DNA from: a virus
DNA length: 64,000 nucleotides
Reading direction: 5' to 3' (one strand)
IMG/VR virus record: IMGVR_UViG_3300013093_000022
Span: 62,001-126,000 of that record
Below, piece after piece: positions 43,065-63,466 of the stretch (position 1 is the stretch's first letter; the number at the start of each line of letters is the position of its first letter). Below the pieces are notes generated by a model, which was not told the DNA's origin, did not search any database, and saw only the letters and a list, made by a program, of their open reading frames with translations. Position numbers and translations under genes: made by a program.

Positions 43065-43844
43065 CTAGTCGAAACTGATCGGCAGGGTGTCGGGCACCAG
43101 CTCGACCAGCAGCCGCCGGAAGCCGTCCATCGTCACCCGGGGCTGGGGCACGTCGAGGACCAGTCCCCCGGTGTTGGCGTCAAGGTGGCTCTGCGGCAGG
43201 ACCGACATCCAGCCCCGCTCGATCGCCCACTGCATCACCCGGTACCGCCTGTCGCCTCCCCGGCCGATCCAGTTCCGGCCCTCCAAGTGCTTGAACAGCC
43301 TGTTCTGGCCGACCTTGATCCCGGCCCGGGTCAGTGCCTGGGCCGTGTCGCGGACAGACATGTCACCGCTGGCGTTGAGGATCCTGTCGGCCACCAGGGC
43401 CCGGGGCCTCAATTCCTCGACCTCGGCCGCCAACTCCTGGACCCGGCGTGCCGTGATCGACAGGGCCCGGTGGACGATCTCGTCCTCGGTCAGCGCGGGC
43501 CGGGGGTCGCCGTACCGGCCTGTCCTGCGGATGGCCGGGAGAACCTCGCCGGTGATCCAGCGCCGGAAGCGGACCGCCTCGGGCTTGTCGCTGCGGATGA
43601 CGACCTCGTACATGCCCGACTCGGACACGATGACCGTCTGGCGCATCTGACCTCGGGCATTCTCAACCTCAGTTTGACTGAGGTTCATTGCATCAAGGCG
43701 GTCGGCGACCATCGACGGGTTGCCGATGTTCAGCACCGCACACAGGTCGGCCAGGACGAACCACGGGTCGCCGTCGACGAGCAGGACACGGACCTGGTGG
43801 GTGTCGAAGACGAACCCCTCAAGATCGGCGGGGCCGACGCTCAC
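43065..43844 (-). CDS. Phage antirepressor, BRO-N plus KilAC
   Basis: This encodes 259 residues; GTG in a GTGA overlap. N-terminal BRO-N domain (residues about 8-110): FVLADLCAVLNIGNPSMVAD, then VIVSESGMYEVVIRSDKPEA, RFRRWITGEVLPAIRRTGRY. C-terminal ANT/KilAC domain: ILNASGDMSVRDTAQALTRA, QNRLFKHLEGRNWI, ending with DGFRRLLVELVP. Such proteins bind and inactivate repressors to allow lytic growth. Its position inside head genes, away from any repressor or integrase in this window, is unusual. Confidence 0.85.
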   Translation of the reverse strand: MSVGPADLEGFVFDTHQVRVLLVDGDPWFVLADLCAVLNIGNPSMVADRLDAMNLSQTEVENARGQMRQTVIVSESGMYEVVIRSDKPEAVRFRRWITGEVLPAIRRTGRYGDPRPALTEDEIVHRALSITARRVQELAAEVEELRPRALVADRILNASGDMSVRDTAQALTRAGIKVGQNRLFKHLEGRNWIGRGGDRRYRVMQWAIERGWMSVLPQSHLDANTGGLVLDVPQPRVTMDGFRRLLVELVPDTLPISFD

Positions 43845-44684: not shown

Positions 44685-47600
44685 TCAGAAGTTCCGACTC
44701 GGCCGCGTCCCCGTGATCGACTCGTAGTCCTCCAGGAGGCGCTCCAAGAGTTTACGGGACTCGGGGGCACCGCCGCCAACGATCTCCGGCCAGTCGGCCA
44801 CGATCTCGGCCTCGTGGCCCTGGGCGTGCAGCAGCTCGTAGAAGCCCGGGTCGTGGACGAGCCTCTCCACCGACACCGGGGCGGCGGCACGCCGGTGGAT
44901 CGCCTGCTCCACCCTCGACTGGTCGGCCAGGTACGACCTGCGGTACGACGACGGGCCAGACTTGAAGTTGCGGAGCTTGTTGGCCAGCTTCGCGATGTCG
45001 CGGGGCGAGGCCCCGCCCCTGCCCGGCAGGTGGACCGGCGGCAGCCGCCGGGCACCCTCCTTCGGCTGGCGGGCTGGCAACTCGCCGCTGCCCCGCCACT
45101 CGTCCGACTCCTCGGGGCGCTGCCGGTTCTTCGGCACGATCACCTCCGCCGAACCGCCCGGTGCGGACACCTCTCCGCCCGGCGGGAAAGCCGACGGGCC
45201 CGCCGCCCTCGGCCCGTGCATCGTCGCCGTCACCTGCTGCTGACCGGCGGCCGGTGGGGCGGCCTGCTGCTGGTCGGCCGACTGCTGCTGGGCGTCGCCC
45301 GCTAAGGGCTGCATCGTCGTCCCCGGCAACAAGCCCATCATCCCCGCCGGAGACGCCTGAGCGATCTGCTGATCCATCATCTTCGTCTGGTCCTCAAGCT
45401 GCTCGGTCTGAGCCAAACCCTGACGCAACTGCAGGGTCGCCATCAGGTGCTGGGTCAACTCGGGCGGGTAGGCGTAGTCCTGCTCGTCGCACATCTGCTG
45501 CAGGACGTGCATCGCCTCGGCCTGGGCTAGGCCCTTGTCGATCGTCTCCTGGGCCTGACGCTCCAACTCCTGCTCAAACTCGAACGGGATGTTGATCGCC
45601 AGGGTCTTGTCCGAGATCGGGACGCCCAACTGCTTCAACTGGGACACGAAGTTCCGCTCGGTCGCCTCGTCGCGCAGGTTCAGGGTGTTGTGCGACACCA
45701 GGCCAGCCGTAACATGGGTGTGGGTGCTGGTAATTCCCAGGGTAACGATATCGCCGCCCTCGGGGAGGTGAGTCACCGACAGGACCTGGTCCCACTCGAC
45801 CGGACGCGGGGCCTTCCTCCCCCGTGTGGATGGTCGGGCCATGTCATCCAGCGCGGCGATCTTGGTGCCGATCATCGGTGTCAGGGTGTCGCGCAGCATC
45901 TGGAAGTAGTGGTTGTTGCTGACTGTCAGGTGGTTCACCGACTGCATGCCGGGGCCCTTTTGAGACTTGTACCGGTAGGCGTAGGAGCGGACTTGGGCGC
46001 GAATGCCCAGCGACTCGAAAAGCACCTGGCAGTCGTCCAGCAGGGCACGGTTGACTGAACCGATCTTCAGTCCAGAACGACGACAGGCGTAGCCGTCGGC
46101 GTCAAAATATCCGGACAGGAACGCGGCGCGACCCTTGGCCCCTGCCGCCCAGACCATCGGCGGAACACGTTTGGTGTGGCCGTTCTCGCCCCACATGCCC
46201 TGCTCGCGGAGCAGGGTGTGTAGCGGGTTCCGCAGCACATTTCCCTTCCAAGGTGCAGGCCGGGAGAACGCCCGGTACCAGACCTTGTCGGTGCGGGCAT
46301 CGGCCTTTCGGCGAGCAGTAAGACCCATCCGCTCGGCCTGCTCGCAGACGAATGCATCCACCTCGGGGTCGCTGACCGACAAAGACACATGAGTGGTGGA
46401 ATAATTTCCATCACCGACCAGCAACCCCAGAAAGCGCAGCATGTCTATGTCGTCGTCGGAATCGACGTGTGCCGTCAACTGACCGGCGGACGTGCGGATC
46501 AGGCTGTCAGCGGTAAGATTTTCGGCCGACACCCACCCCCGGCTGGTCCAGAACGGGTGGTCGGCGGTGCAGCGCACCGTGCGCCCAGTGGCAGTGGCCA
46601 CCTCAACCAGGTGGTCGCGGTGCTCGATGCCGGTGTGTAGCGCGGTATCAATAACGTAGCCGGTGCCGTCCCAAGCGATGACCTCATCGCCGGTCTGGAT
46701 GTCCTCAACATTGCGCTGTCCGGTAGGCGTGAGGACCTGCGTGCCAGGAACGACACAGGCGAACTTCACCTCGGGGATCAGCAGCTTCGGTACCCGGACC
46801 GTGTACTGCTCGCCCGTCTCCTCGTCCTCCTCGACCACCGTCTCGTAGATCGGGACCCGCGTCCCGCCCTTGAGGTCGTAGTCGTAGAACTCCTGGGCCT
46901 CCGACACGATCTCCATCCTCTTGCGGAGGTGGCGGACGACCTTGTTCTGGGCCGATTTCATCAGTTGCTCGCACACCTCGCGGTTGATCGCCGTCCCGGC
47001 GTAGGTGTCGCCCGAGCCGCCCATGATCAGGCCCTGCCCGATCCCCCACGACTGCATGATCTGGGCGTCGACCCGGTCGTAGTCGGTGTCGAAACGGGGT
47101 ACCGACTCGCGGCCGAACACGCTCGTCACGTTCAGCCCGAAGTTGTGGCACAGCAGCTTGAAGTCGGCCGCCAGCGCCGACTGGATGTCGTCCCGCAGGT
47201 CCTCCAACTCGGCCTGGTCGGGGATCCACGGCTCGCCGTCGCCCATGTTCTCGATGCCCAGCGTCGCCAGGATCATCGGCGCGTACAGGCGATCGCAGTT
47301 GTGAACGGCGATCGGAGAGCAATACGAGTTGTCCTCTTTAACTTCGAGGTTGTACACCGTCTCTGTGACCTGATGGTGCCTGACGGACCGGACCTCCACC
47401 CAGTACCCGCCGCGATCGTTTCTGGCCGCACGGCGGGGCGTCTTGACCGCTGTTACGGACCCCCCTGTCCAGCCCCGTTCGGCGTCCCGTTTACCCGAAA
47501 ACACCGAGGTGATCATTCCGGCTCGGCGCATCAGCCACGCCGCAGATTCCTGCAGGGTTCGGTGCTTGGCCACACCAAGGTCACGGACATGGTTGCGGCA

Positions 47601-49385
47601 GCCATCGCCGTCAAGCCACCCCTCTACAAGGTGGTGTGTTTGTTCGGGGGTGAGGGTGAAGGCCCACGACGGAAAGCGTTTAGTCTCGCCGACGCCACAC
47701 ATTTCCCGGAAGAAAGGGCCCAGCACGGTGCTGTTCAGTTCCACGTTGATCGACTTGATGCGAGACCCATCCGAACGAAATCCTGTGGCTTTGACGATCG
47801 CGTCAAGTCCGAAAACATCCTTGATAACTTTGGCGGCCCGGGCAGCCTTATCAGATTCACCCTCGCCGACCACAATCCGAACCGATTTGCTGTTGGCGCT
47901 TCCATCTGCGACGTGAAGGCCGATCAGCCACAGCAGGTCGTCGGTGACCTTAAACTCGTCACCGCAGGACCGGACTGCTCTGTTTCTTAGGGCCGACAAG
48001 ATTTTCTCGTCCAGGTGCTCACCCAAAAAGAGCGAAACCTTTTCCAGACCGGGGGAATCGGGGTGGAGAACCTGATCGTACTTCCGAACATCGGCGGCCC
48101 TCACAAAGCCTTCAGAAAAATTGGAATGGCTGTGCATGTTGTATCGGGCCGGGACGTTTACAGGCCGCCGGACATAGACCGGGTGCTCACCCGTCAACGT
48201 CATCGGCCGGTCGTACCACCAGTTCAGAGTGACGCCCGGTTCGTCGGCCTCGCGGATCATCGTCCGGATAACCTTCCGGTACCTTCCCCTGTGGGTCAGT
48301 ACGGCGTCACCGGCCTTGACGTTCTGGATCTCAACAACGCCATTGGAGGTCAGAACGGGCTGGCCGTAGACCAGACACACGGCATCTTGTGCCGCGTTGA
48401 GGCTTTCCTCCAGCATCAGGGTCCGGAACGACCGCAGCAGGTGGGGGGTGCCCCGTAGGTCCCACCAGGCGGCCTTGTTGACCATGCGGCTGACCAGGGC
48501 GTCGGAGATGTCCAGCCCGTCGTTCTGGGCGGCGGCTGAGATGATCTCCGGGTAGTTCTTCGTGAGTTGCTGGTACTCCCAGGTCCGCTCGTACTTCTCG
48601 GACGGCGACTCGCCCGCCAGGGCCATCCCGCCCGGGCCGGTACGCAGCGACTCGACCAGGTCCTTCACCAGGAGTTGGACCCTCTCCTGCTCCACGAACA
48701 GCGACTTCGACACCCGGACCATGTCGGGGTTCAGGATCTCCTCCGACGACCAGATGCCCAGGTCTTCGTTGAAGTGGGCCAGGGCCGTCACCTCGCCGAC
48801 CATGAAGTACTCGCGCAGCAGGCCGTCGGGCAGGAACTCCTCATAGTTCAGGTCGTTCATGAACATCTGGGTGTAGAACTTCTCGATCTCCGGGTCCTTG
48901 CACACGAACTCCAGGCCCATGACCGGGAACTTCGAGTAGATGTCGATTAGCAGCGGGACTAGGGGGTGGGTGGCGAAAAACAGACGACACCACCTTCTGA
49001 GCTCGGTCAACTCGTCGGGGTCGTGGACGTTGAACGGGACGCCCTTGTCCATGAGGCTGCCCAGGGGCTGGCGGACCTTCGGCAGCACCATCTGGGTGTT
49101 GGCGGCGGTGCGGGTCATAGCCCCGCCCGAACCTGCCCGCCGGAACCTGTCCTGGCGCATCGCGGCCATCGCGGCCCGGTTCTGGACGTCGCTGACCGTG
49201 CCACGGCTCTGCAAGTCGGACGCCACCTTGCGGGCCTCCAGGCGGGCCATGACGGGGTTGTTGGGCATGGGGAAGCCGGAGGCCTTGAGGCGGCGCATCT
49301 CGGCGTCGCCGTTGCCCACGTAGAGGCCGGAGGCGGTCACCTGCCGGGCCGAGTGGCGCTGGTCATTGATCGGGAAGTCGGCCAC
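44685..49385 (-). CDS. Portal protein precursor with two inteins (1566 aa; mature about 849)
   Basis: GTG start directly after the previous stop. Extein parts: residues 1-336, 697-876 and 1234-1566. Portal features: a helical N-terminus, CRLFFATHPLVPLLIDIYSK, LNPDMVRVSKSLFVEQERVQ, YAPMILATLGIENMGDGEPW (clip/stem region), SGDTYAGTAINREVCEQLMK and a long C-terminal helix (FEFEQELERQAQETIDKGLA). The last 200 residues add Gln/Pro-rich and basic sequence. The dodecameric portal is the DNA gate and terminase dock. Inteins at 337-696 and 877-1233 must splice out for function; their host junctions are DAV/CDR and KFA/TLN. Confidence 0.83.
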   Translation of the reverse strand: MADFPINDQRHSARQVTASGLYVGNGDAEMRRLKASGFPMPNNPVMARLEARKVASDLQSRGTVSDVQNRAAMAAMRQDRFRRAGSGGAMTRTAANTQMVLPKVRQPLGSLMDKGVPFNVHDPDELTELRRWCRLFFATHPLVPLLIDIYSKFPVMGLEFVCKDPEIEKFYTQMFMNDLNYEEFLPDGLLREYFMVGEVTALAHFNEDLGIWSSEEILNPDMVRVSKSLFVEQERVQLLVKDLVESLRTGPGGMALAGESPSEKYERTWEYQQLTKNYPEIISAAAQNDGLDISDALVSRMVNKAAWWDLRGTPHLLRSFRTLMLEESLNAAQDAVCLVYGQPVLTSNGVVEIQNVKAGDAVLTHRGRYRKVIRTMIREADEPGVTLNWWYDRPMTLTGEHPVYVRRPVNVPARYNMHSHSNFSEGFVRAADVRKYDQVLHPDSPGLEKVSLFLGEHLDEKILSALRNRAVRSCGDEFKVTDDLLWLIGLHVADGSANSKSVRIVVGEGESDKAARAAKVIKDVFGLDAIVKATGFRSDGSRIKSINVELNSTVLGPFFREMCGVGETKRFPSWAFTLTPEQTHHLVEGWLDGDGCRNHVRDLGVAKHRTLQESAAWLMRRAGMITSVFSGKRDAERGWTGGSVTAVKTPRRAARNDRGGYWVEVRSVRHHQVTETVYNLEVKEDNSYCSPIAVHNCDRLYAPMILATLGIENMGDGEPWIPDQAELEDLRDDIQSALAADFKLLCHNFGLNVTSVFGRESVPRFDTDYDRVDAQIMQSWGIGQGLIMGGSGDTYAGTAINREVCEQLMKSAQNKVVRHLRKRMEIVSEAQEFYDYDLKGGTRVPIYETVVEEDEETGEQYTVRVPKLLIPEVKFACVVPGTQVLTPTGQRNVEDIQTGDEVIAWDGTGYVIDTALHTGIEHRDHLVEVATATGRTVRCTADHPFWTSRGWVSAENLTADSLIRTSAGQLTAHVDSDDDIDMLRFLGLLVGDGNYSTTHVSLSVSDPEVDAFVCEQAERMGLTARRKADARTDKVWYRAFSRPAPWKGNVLRNPLHTLLREQGMWGENGHTKRVPPMVWAAGAKGRAAFLSGYFDADGYACRRSGLKIGSVNRALLDDCQVLFESLGIRAQVRSYAYRYKSQKGPGMQSVNHLTVSNNHYFQMLRDTLTPMIGTKIAALDDMARPSTRGRKAPRPVEWDQVLSVTHLPEGGDIVTLGITSTHTHVTAGLVSHNTLNLRDEATERNFVSQLKQLGVPISDKTLAINIPFEFEQELERQAQETIDKGLAQAEAMHVLQQMCDEQDYAYPPELTQHLMATLQLRQGLAQTEQLEDQTKMMDQQIAQASPAGMMGLLPGTTMQPLAGDAQQQSADQQQAAPPAAGQQQVTATMHGPRAAGPSAFPPGGEVSAPGGSAEVIVPKNRQRPEESDEWRGSGELPARQPKEGARRLPPVHLPGRGGASPRDIAKLANKLRNFKSGPSSYRRSYLADQSRVEQAIHRRAAAPVSVERLVHDPGFYELLHAQGHEAEIVADWPEIVGGGAPESRKLLERLLEDYESITGTRPSRNF
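45687..46757 (-). other. Portal intein 2 (357 aa) with LAGLIDADG endonuclease
   Basis: Starts at Cys (CVVPGTQVLTPTGQRNVEDI), block B is CTADHPFW, endonuclease motifs are FLGLLVGDGNY and FLSGYFDADGYA with both acidic residues present, and the end is HVTAGLVSHN with Thr as +1 residue. Insertion is in the wing/clip part after KLLIPEVKFA. Confidence 0.9.
47298..48377 (-). other. Portal intein 1 (360 aa) with LAGLIDADG endonuclease
   Basis: Starts at Cys (CLVYGQPVLTSNGVVEIQNV), block B is LTGEHPVYV, endonuclease motifs are LIGLHVADGS and VEGWLDGDGC, and the end is NSYCSPIAVHN with Cys as +1 residue. The host joins AAQDAV to CDRLYAPM. Confidence 0.9.
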
Positions 49386-60157: not shown

Positions 60158-63100
60158 TCAACCCCGCCTCTGAACGCCTTTCGGCGTCTTCGGTTCCCGG
60201 GTGTGGATGGAGTTCAGGCTGGACGGCTCGTACCGGCCCCGGCGGTGCCTCCCGTCGGTCATGGCACGCCTCTCTTGGATCACCTCAGACGCCGGACGCC
60301 ACGTCTTGTCCTCCATGAACTTGTCCATCTCGCGGCCCGACTTCAGACCGGACACATTAGACGAGCCGTAGGCACCGGCGGTCAGCCTGTCCGACGACCA
60401 CCGGTCGAGCGCGTCACGCAACAGGTCGACCGCCACCACCATGACCGCGTCGGCCAGGTCCTTCGTCACCACCGGGCCCGTGTCCTGCTTCACGACCCGG
60501 CCGTTCCTCTCCGACAGGAACTTCAACTCCAACTCCAGCAGGCACGACTCGTTGTCCAGGTAGAAGCTGTCCGGGAAGCAGTGGATCCAGCCCAGGTTGA
60601 GCGCCGACTTGAACTTCTCACACCGGACCTGGTTCTCCTTCTCGGTGAACGGCAACTCGACCACCCGGATGCCGGGCATGAACTTCTGCCGCAGCGATGC
60701 GATGAACGAGGCGCTGTTGTGAGAAACCACGCCGTTGGCGATGTAAGACTCAGGGCCGGGGACGGAGAGGTCGTAGCAGTCGGTCACAGAATCCTCAATG
60801 CGGGACACCCTCACCCAGTACTCGTCCCCGTGTCGCTGATGTTTACTCCTAAGACCAACACCACGCCCCGAACTCCCCTGAACAACATTAACGGCTTGGA
60901 CGAGTTCCTGCTGCTTCCGCGAGCAAGAAAACCCAACTTCGTCGGCGAAGTCAAGCAAGTCAAGACCGTACATCTTGATGCGCCATTGGTCTCGCACCTC
61001 ACCCCTATAGCGATAAGTGCCCGACCAGAGAGTGGAGAAAACTCCGATTGACAGCAGCAGTTGCTGTACCACCTCGGCGATGTCGTAGGAGGTTGTCGTA
61101 GCCTCAATCCAGACCTCCCCCTCCCTACCAAAGCAGACGCCGCCATCACCCTCAAAGTATCCGCGCAAGAACGCCTTGACGACTTCGGCGGGGGACGTCC
61201 GAATAACCCAGGGAACCGCCTTCTCCGTTGCCCTGCCACTTAGGCCCAATTGGCGCAAGAATCGGGGAATCCGGCCACCCTTCCGCACCGTTCCCCAGTG
61301 ATACTTCCCCATCCAGTCATCCACGGTTTTGGAGGTCCAGGTTCCCCCGAAACTCTTCTCCATCAGGGTTCGGTACCGCTCAACCAACTCGTCGTCACTG
61401 TTACCGAACCGACAGTGAAGATCGGTGTAATCGCCCTCGGCCACCAGCAGACCGAGAGCCTCCCCCAATGCCTCGTCGCAGCCCGGGGACCACTCTCCTG
61501 TCCAGTTGGGCAGATTCGTCAGATCAAACTCTTCACTGGGGAGCATCGTATTGCGCTTCAGGCAGAGCCAGTCGCCGACCTCAATGTTCCCGCCGACCTC
61601 GTAACCCCACGGCTCGTCGGCGTGCCAAGGCCTCGCCTTGGCTTTCCTGACCCACAACCTATGCTCGGGCGTGATCTCAATCGTGTTGCCCAGTTTGGTG
61701 GTGATCTTCCTAGTCGGAACGACACCTTTGTGAAACCCCTGCCTAATCACCGCAGTCTGGGTATGGGACTCCACGCCAAGGTTCAAATCCACGACTTTCC
61801 CGACAGGAACCTCGTCTCCGACGATCTCATCAACTCGAAGCAGGCCACGTGCCGTCGGCACAAGGGTTGATCCAGCGAGGCAGTTCCACTGGTCGAACGA
61901 AATCTTCTCGGTCGACATGAACCGGGACAGGATGTCGTCAATGTCGGAGTGGACCTGCACGTAGTCGATCGTCCGCTTGTGGGTCTCGGCGTCCTCGGGG
62001 AAGTCCATCGGCCGCCACACCTTCAGGAAGTCAAACACCACGTGGGGCCAGACCCGGCCGTGCTCGTCGGGCGGGGCGTCCTCCAAATGGGCGACCGCCA
62101 GCGAAAAGTTCGCGCCGGTGCGGCCCGGGTCGCAGTGGATCCGATACTTGCGGTCAAACGTGCCGTACGCCTGCGGGGCCAGCGGCTCGCGCCAGTCGGG
62201 GTCGCGGTACATGGCATCGACCTTGTCCGAGTCGAGGTACTGGTCGAGAACCTCGCCGAACTGACCCTGCTTCTCCACCCGGAACTTGTCGGGGTCGCGG
62301 AGCCTCTCCCGAATTTGGCGCTCGTCGGTCAGGTCGGGCTCGGGCGACTTGTCGAATTTGTACCGAACGCCCAGGACGCGGCGCACGTCCCTCCAGTCGC
62401 GGTACAGGTCCCACGACGAGCCCTGGAAGATCAGCCACGACGGGTCGCAGTCAAGTTCGGCCTGGCGGCCCACGTTCATCAGGTTCTGGCGGGCCTCGTC
62501 GGCCATGCCGGTCTCATCGCTGTAGCTGCTCATCAGGACCCGGCCCGACTGGTACAGGACGTAGAACTGGCCCGCCTTCGTCGCCGGGGACGACGGGATG
62601 TAGGTCAGAGAGTCGTTGCCGAACTGTCCCAGCGACGGCTGCCAGGCGTGGTAAATCTCGGTGTCGGACTTACTCGACCCGGTCTGGACGTGGAACGCGA
62701 ACTCGTCGTACAGGTTGGCGAACGAGGTCTGGCCACGTCCCGACACCGAGTTCGTCGCCAGGGCCACCCCGACCAGAGAGGCGATCTGGTGGTCGATCGG
62801 GATCCTCGCGACCTTCATCTCCGAGATCCGGCGCAGGTCGGCCGGGGTTCGGATCCGCAGGATCGCGTCCTTCGACTCGGCGATCCACGGCGGCTGGCCG
62901 TCGGGCCGGAAGTACTTGCACTGCTCGACCATCGTCCGGACGTCGGCGAACAGTTGGCGGGCCGCCTGGGTTTGGGAGGTGCCTCCGACGTTGAGGTACA
63001 CATCCTTGCCACGGGCGACCCCGTACACGGCCTGCGGGTCGTCGAGCGAGTGGAGGTAGGCGATCTGCTCACAGGCCAGCAGACCCCCCATCGCCCCCTT

Positions 63101-63466
63101 CGAGGCGCGTCGGCCGAGGACCATCTGGATGTGGGGGAACCGGCGGTAGCCTCGCTGCTTCAGGTACTCGACCCGCTGCCAGATGTCGGGCTGGACCCCG
63201 AACGTCTCCCGGGCCAGGGTGAAGCCCTTGCGCCACTCGTTGATCACGTCGACGTCGTACTGGGTCATCTGCTCGGTCTCGAGGAAGATGAGCTTGAGCA
63301 GGGTCGCCTGCCTGGGGAAGATCGGGAATCCGCAGAAGCTGGGGTGGATCGCGAAGTCGACGATGCTGTCCCACGGTGCCCGCCGGTTCAGGCCGCCGAC
63401 CACCATCTCGACGGCGTCGAACCCCTTGGCGGCGAGCCTCTCCTGCTCCCGGGGGTTGAACGCCAT
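60158..63466 (-). CDS. terL: Terminase large subunit precursor with intein (1102 aa; mature 713)
   Basis: ATG start (MAFNPREQERLAAKGFDAVE). ATPase: variant Walker A GRRASKGAMGG (residues 118-128) and Walker B LYDEF (D254, E255). RNase H-like nuclease: D446 (HCDPGRTG), D525 (FDQWN) and D1006 (KDLADAVM). The intein (529-917) starts four residues after catalytic D525, so packaging enzyme activity depends on splicing, which rejoins FDQWN to SASFIASL. The enzyme cuts concatemeric DNA and drives it through the portal. Preceded by lysis genes and followed by small genes. Confidence 0.93.
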   Translation of the reverse strand: MAFNPREQERLAAKGFDAVEMVVGGLNRRAPWDSIVDFAIHPSFCGFPIFPRQATLLKLIFLETEQMTQYDVDVINEWRKGFTLARETFGVQPDIWQRVEYLKQRGYRRFPHIQMVLGRRASKGAMGGLLACEQIAYLHSLDDPQAVYGVARGKDVYLNVGGTSQTQAARQLFADVRTMVEQCKYFRPDGQPPWIAESKDAILRIRTPADLRRISEMKVARIPIDHQIASLVGVALATNSVSGRGQTSFANLYDEFAFHVQTGSSKSDTEIYHAWQPSLGQFGNDSLTYIPSSPATKAGQFYVLYQSGRVLMSSYSDETGMADEARQNLMNVGRQAELDCDPSWLIFQGSSWDLYRDWRDVRRVLGVRYKFDKSPEPDLTDERQIRERLRDPDKFRVEKQGQFGEVLDQYLDSDKVDAMYRDPDWREPLAPQAYGTFDRKYRIHCDPGRTGANFSLAVAHLEDAPPDEHGRVWPHVVFDFLKVWRPMDFPEDAETHKRTIDYVQVHSDIDDILSRFMSTEKISFDQWNCLAGSTLVPTARGLLRVDEIVGDEVPVGKVVDLNLGVESHTQTAVIRQGFHKGVVPTRKITTKLGNTIEITPEHRLWVRKAKARPWHADEPWGYEVGGNIEVGDWLCLKRNTMLPSEEFDLTNLPNWTGEWSPGCDEALGEALGLLVAEGDYTDLHCRFGNSDDELVERYRTLMEKSFGGTWTSKTVDDWMGKYHWGTVRKGGRIPRFLRQLGLSGRATEKAVPWVIRTSPAEVVKAFLRGYFEGDGGVCFGREGEVWIEATTTSYDIAEVVQQLLLSIGVFSTLWSGTYRYRGEVRDQWRIKMYGLDLLDFADEVGFSCSRKQQELVQAVNVVQGSSGRGVGLRSKHQRHGDEYWVRVSRIEDSVTDCYDLSVPGPESYIANGVVSHNSASFIASLRQKFMPGIRVVELPFTEKENQVRCEKFKSALNLGWIHCFPDSFYLDNESCLLELELKFLSERNGRVVKQDTGPVVTKDLADAVMVVAVDLLRDALDRWSSDRLTAGAYGSSNVSGLKSGREMDKFMEDKTWRPASEVIQERRAMTDGRHRRGRYEPSSLNSIHTREPKTPKGVQRRG
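60716..61882 (-). other. Terminase intein (389 aa) with LAGLIDADG endonuclease
   Basis: Starts at Cys (CLAGSTLVPTARGLLRVDEI), block B TPEHRLWV, endonuclease motifs ALGLLVAEGDY and FLRGYFEGDGGV (acidic residues present), block F/G ending ESYIANGVVSHN, with Ser as +1 residue. Lower GC than the host gene. Confidence 0.92.

Follow-up and report, generated by a model that had tools for sequence, protein, structure and literature searches.

Two packaging genes of this phage are interrupted by inteins, the portal gene by two and the large terminase gene by one, and we consider it very probable that all three are full-length class 1 homing inteins, each acquired separately, in a phage related to the cluster C actinobacteriophages. 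The window analysed here, 64,000 nucleotides in length, corresponds to bases 62001-126000 of the IMG/VR virus record IMGVR_UViG_3300013093_000022 (126,513 bases in total). The portal precursor ORF (44685-49385, minus strand; PHROG 2833, portal protein, E 5.5e-296) codes for 1566 residues, i.e. exteins of 336, 180 and 333 residues separated by intein A (47298-48377, minus strand; 360 residues; portal residues 337-696) and intein B (45687-46757, minus strand; 357 residues; portal residues 877-1233). The large terminase precursor ORF (60158-63466, minus strand; PHROG 2, terminase large subunit, E 3e-24) codes for 1102 residues, with exteins of 528 and 185 residues on either side of intein T (60716-61882, minus strand; 389 residues; terminase residues 529-917). 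Three Pfam models, run against the whole 126.5-kb record, revealed no fourth intein. The gene for an anti-repressor (Ant, PHROG 130, E 4e-57; 43065-43844, minus strand) is located a short distance downstream of the portal ORF. The preliminary description of this DNA had assigned the portal inteins to the interval 45687-48377, whose two ends coincide with the final base of B and the initial base of A; its lengths of 360 and 357 residues and its junctions AV/C...HN/CD and FA/C...HN/TL are borne out to the base, and the third intein that it reported is indeed present in the terminase.

The residues required for splicing identify A, B and T as predicted class 1 inteins. Residue 1, the N-terminal nucleophile, is Cys in each; block B has the Thr-x-x-His signature (TGEH in A, TADH in B and TPEH in T), and the penultimate His and C-terminal Asn are followed by a +1 nucleophile, Cys for A, Thr for B and Ser for T (V/C...HN/C, A/C...HN/T and N/C...HN/S, respectively). 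The differences in +1 residue and block B between the portal inteins had been described before and are confirmed here. None of the three has the class 3 arrangement, in which residue 1 is not a nucleophile and block F provides one instead. In contrast, the TerL intein of phage Phrappuccino, which starts with AQPLDT, has a class 3 look. The RefSeq label of that gp2 terminase (NC_054727; L032:1501-4761), 'DarB-like antirestriction', is probably a misannotation.

Each intein also harbours two LAGLIDADG motifs, as first reported; these retain their acidic residue and predict homing endonucleases. All were located by alignment on the minus strand: in A at 47901-47936 (LLWLIGLHVADG, with the core IGLHVADG) and 47601-47630 (LVEGWLDGDG, core EGWLDGDG), in B at 46407-46439 (LRFLGLLVGDG, core LGLLVGDG) and 46092-46121 (FLSGYFDADG, core SGYFDADG), and in T at 61433-61468 (LGEALGLLVAEG, core LGLLVAEG) and 61142-61171 (FLRGYFEGDG, core RGYFEGDG). 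The second motifs of B and T were also detected with Pfam LAGLIDADG_3; both inteins are above the Pfam cut-off for that family and for Intein_splicing, which assigns them the Hint fold. Intein A is under the cut-off (22.1 bits vs 35.8). Its structure model, of low confidence (pLDDT 55), has as best Foldseek match PI-SceI (E 4e-10), an intein with a LAGLIDADG endonuclease, and comparison of this low-confidence model with Hint domains gave VIA Z scores of 12-13, which suggests a Hint fold for A as well. We accept A as an intein because of this predicted fold and because its site is exactly empty in relatives. The third-codon-position GC content of the inteins (0.70-0.77) differs from that of the portal exteins (0.935).

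Precise removal of each intein restores a host protein sequence found in homologues. The extein pieces flanking A join without gap in the portals of the IMG/VR relatives L007-L018 (that of L009 being incomplete at its N-terminus), and those flanking B do so in intein-free relatives, with one-residue alignment trimming in a few. The window's nearest relatives, L008 and L009, have neither A nor B, and site B is empty in L008, L007 and L011. The terminase site is empty in six loci (L036, L037 and L047-L050), namely in the phages Stormageddon and Sebata and in four IMG/VR contigs; Stormageddon reads DQWNS at this position and the others DQFNS. Conversely, the codon junction occupied by B is identical in the named phages ET08, Gizmo, Colt, Cane17 and Blubba and in the IMG/VR contigs L013, L020 and L022, which excludes chance. 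An assembly artefact, or dead inteins that do not splice, might be envisaged since the record is metagenomic and A is under the Pfam cut-off. Nevertheless, both long ORFs are open throughout, all catalytic residues checked are present, the junction of B is identical in sequenced phage isolates and relatives have exact empty sites, making this explanation extremely unlikely.

The three inteins appear to have different origins. The similarity between A and B is not significant (E about 1), that between B and T has an E value of 2e-7, and each is better matched elsewhere. The best matches of A are portal inteins at other sites, those of contig L060 (E 6e-28) and of Eggerthella phage LE2-3 (E 6e-21), those of B are the portal inteins of ET08, Cane17, Blubba, L013, L020 and L022, and those of T are the TerL intein of Perkons, a Psychrobacillus phage terminase (E 5e-28), and an intein of the Eldridge DNA polymerase. 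The Perkons intein occupies another terminase position than T. In a maximum likelihood tree, A falls in the other well-supported half (96/97) than B and T, and B groups with its alleles (100/99); trees at about 25% identity are weak, and the placement of the L060 and L066 inteins rests on BLAST scores. Searching bacterial and archaeal genomes with A yielded a single distant Bathyarchaeota intein (23% identity), and IMG/VR gave no hits to intein T or to the N-terminal extein of the terminase. These comparisons support separate arrivals of A, B and T, as had been proposed from the sequence: the three are not mutual nearest relatives, the outcome named beforehand as speaking against independent invasions. 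The portal inteins had also been called unrelated-looking, and A and B are indeed without significant similarity; 'unrelated' is nevertheless too strong, as all three share the class 1 Hint and LAGLIDADG design.

Intein A resembles the portal inteins of LE2-3 and L060 in its +1 Cys and in motifs around VLTH.GR and near the C-terminus (VYNLEV.ED.SY in LE2-3). In contrast to A, which follows extein residue 336, these are inserted after residues 145 and 195, respectively, and they have about 25% identity with it. Compared with the ET08 portal intein, A has E values of 0.08-0.3 and a different insertion site; it shares neither the junction nor the high identity that characterize the ET08 gp79 type. 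Site A (PERMISSIVENESS) is within the most conserved stretch of the portal. Among 62 readable IMG/VR portal loci, the +1 residue at this site is Ala in 54, Ser in two and Cys in six (L007-L010, L078 and L105), and intein A is absent from all six loci with Cys. This indicates that the +1 Cys is probably older than the intein in the family neighbourhood of the window, and A should splice normally only in alleles with a +1 Cys.

Intein B, judging from its insertion junction and high identity, belongs as an allele with the portal intein already described from ET08 gp79 and Cane17 gp79 (Mycobacterium phage subcluster C1; 'PORT', Kelley et al. 2016), with which it shares the junction, the +1 Thr and a length within one residue. 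The window's B is 84-92% identical to these alleles, vs 56-61% for the spliced portals. The GenBank note for Gizmo gp94 (L006:2191-5883) mentions an HNH endonuclease; the protein actually contains a B intein with LAGLIDADG motifs. The clearest sign of mobility comes from cluster C itself. The portal exteins of Cane17 and ET08 are 99.5% identical (dS 0.038), whereas their B inteins, at the same site, are 85% identical (dS 0.91), and the near-identical portal of InterFolia (dS 0.045 to Cane17 and 0.023 to ET08) is devoid of intein. The contrast between intein and extein dS implies that B alleles arrived separately in cluster C and that common descent alone is insufficient.

The history of B in the window lineage itself is less clear-cut. 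Its B is 92% identical to that of Cane17, vs 56% for the spliced portals. The dN and dS values of the inteins are 0.053 and 0.74 (ratio about 0.07, with little difference between the endonuclease and splicing halves), and those of the portal exteins are 0.30 and 0.64. As dS is alike in intein and exteins, the high protein identity of B mainly reflects strong purifying selection, which acts on both its splicing and its endonuclease halves. Selection that keeps the endonuclease intact is the expectation from repeated homing, and the conservation of this half of B would fit such a history. We do not conclude from its high protein identity alone that the window's B was transferred recently, because intein dS is as large as extein dS; the Cane17-ET08 contrast alone is decisive. 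No co-conversion tract was seen beside site B, the flanking identity showing no steady rise towards the site, and AU tests of the B topology were marginal or non-significant (p-AU 0.046 for DNA and 0.13 for protein). The near-equal dS values could also mean that the portal family has long carried B by vertical inheritance with many losses, rather than the window lineage having acquired it from outside. We regard this as a tentative and rather unlikely reading: site B is unoccupied in the nearest relatives (L008, L007 and L011), lateral arrival is required in cluster C to account for two B alleles in portals that are nearly identical, and the codon composition of the intein is unlike that of the exteins.

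We surveyed portal loci fetched from IMG/VR and from named phages, expressing insertion sites in the extein numbering of the window. The portals have at least seven such sites, after residues 132 (Shnickers, Pier, L009 and L066), 145 (LE2-3), 161 (L066), 195 (L060), 271 (L020), 336 (intein A) and 516 (intein B). At least three portals carry two inteins, in pairs that are all different: the window (336 and 516), L020 and the overlapping record L051 (271 and 516), and L066 (132 and 161). A second portal intein is absent from eight of eight named-phage records with B, as determined from ORF length or a single-piece extein match. As a set, the seven sites show no significant bias towards conserved positions (p 0.066); the portal structure model (pLDDT 46) was too poor and was not used for site mapping. 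A literature search, with most subscription journals outside its scope, found no earlier report of a double-intein portal. While inteins in portal and terminase genes are of a known kind, the seven or more sites and three or more double-intein portals in one family are new here, and this multi-site hotspot is the most useful addition of our analysis.

Several of these portals have features of their own. The L066 ORF (L066:1244-5716, 1491 residues) contains inteins of 281 and 324 residues that end with Arg-Asn and Ser-Asn rather than His-Asn, and the inteins at site 132 (Shnickers, L029:2471-5899; L009; L066) end with Lys-Asn or Arg-Asn. The portal intein of Shnickers and the ET08 gp248 intein have a common start, CNTPDAPVW. 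In L020 (L020:757-4371, on a contig shared with L051), intein B is accompanied by a 262-residue intein at extein residue 271, which shares 40% identity with the intein of the ET08 terminase gp239; this likeness indicates the same intein type in both packaging genes. Finally, L008 (L008:3158-3241) and L009 (L009:3095-3181) contain a short stretch like the portal residues DGEPWIPDQ...ALAADF, located where the portal ORF ends or immediately beyond; its frame differs from that of the ORF in L008. It has the look of a duplicated portal fragment.

The arrangement in the window has partial counterparts in other systems. ET08, whose intein set comprises gp3, gp79, gp202, gp239 and gp248 (PMC3029335), likewise has inteins in both the portal (gp79) and the terminase (gp239), but with one intein per gene. 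The portals of ET08, Gizmo, Colt, Cane17 and Blubba have B alone; that of the window, 56% identical to those of ET08 and Cane17, adds a second intein. The terminase inteins of mycobacteriophages, including that of ET08, are in the ATPase domain (Kelley et al. 2016, PMC5050341), and the site of T differs from theirs: T directly follows DQWN in the nuclease half of TerL, most likely three residues after an Asp of that half (HCDPG...FDQWN...KDLADA). Two different inteins in one packaging protein are also found in the TerL of cyanophage Mic1, where one is in the nuclease domain (PMC7156551), and in a crAss-like TerL (OBYQ01000140; PMC7886860), although these are terminases, of unrelated host phages. 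The MCM gene of Haloferax mediterranei also contains two different homing inteins, and the pattern of empty sites determines their homing (PMC10643990); unlike the phage portal, it codes for an archaeal helicase and has been tested experimentally.

Each Hint domain would cut itself out after translation by an N-S acyl shift at Cys1, transesterification to the +1 Cys, Thr or Ser, cyclization of Asn and a final acyl shift, yielding a portal of 849 residues and a terminase of 713 residues. Splicing must be efficient, as normal portal and terminase proteins require it. If a co-infecting phage brings in an allele that lacks the intein, the corresponding LAGLIDADG endonuclease is expected to cleave it, and the intein would be copied across during repair of the break. 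When a gene holds two inteins, each may impede the other in homing into an allele with both sites empty (PMC10643990). The endonucleases might in addition serve as weapons: by cleaving the portal or terminase gene of relatives without the intein during co-infection, they would help the carrier compete. Their motifs are intact, with purifying selection on B, and they would be aimed at essential genes whose insertion sites are present in relatives; a precedent comes from phage PhiPA3, in which an intron endonuclease interferes with co-infecting relatives (PMC11620839). Homing alone nonetheless predicts the same pattern, and we consider such a role, which would add to homing rather than replace it, unlikely. 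More doubtful still is a broader scenario in which the portal is a repeatedly colonised hotspot whose endonucleases target packaging genes of relatives during co-infection, several inteins conferring a competitive edge and possibly acting as a packaging gate.

That packaging is delayed until splicing is complete, as the preliminary description suggested, is a speculation previously put forward for the two inteins of Mic1 TerL (PMC7156551). The inteins would then be kept because the portal and terminase remain inactive until all splicing has finished, possibly in response to cell signals. All three inteins are in packaging-motor proteins, which accords with this idea, as does conditional splicing, which has been described for the DnaB inteins of M. 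smegmatis (PMC6195587). Their distribution is sporadic, however: the InterFolia portal is near-identical to that of ET08 without the intein, and L008 and L009 lack both A and B. Moreover, the three inteins have separate ancestries and do not form a coordinated set, and conservation in B is equally strong in the endonuclease and splicing halves, whereas a pure timer would have no use for an endonuclease. A parasite fits the sporadic distribution and the near-identical phages without portal intein better than a required timer, and we find a gating function very improbable. Homing, perhaps together with interference of the kind described for PhiPA3, accounts for the pattern without it.

As the portal and the terminase are both essential to virion formation, accurate splicing would be needed for any progeny of this phage. 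For the family, a portal with multiple insertion sites, varied pairs of inteins and independent arrivals of B is a convenient system in which to study the homing of neighbouring inteins, their interference and their loss, and it is well suited to testing whether the endonucleases matter in co-infection.
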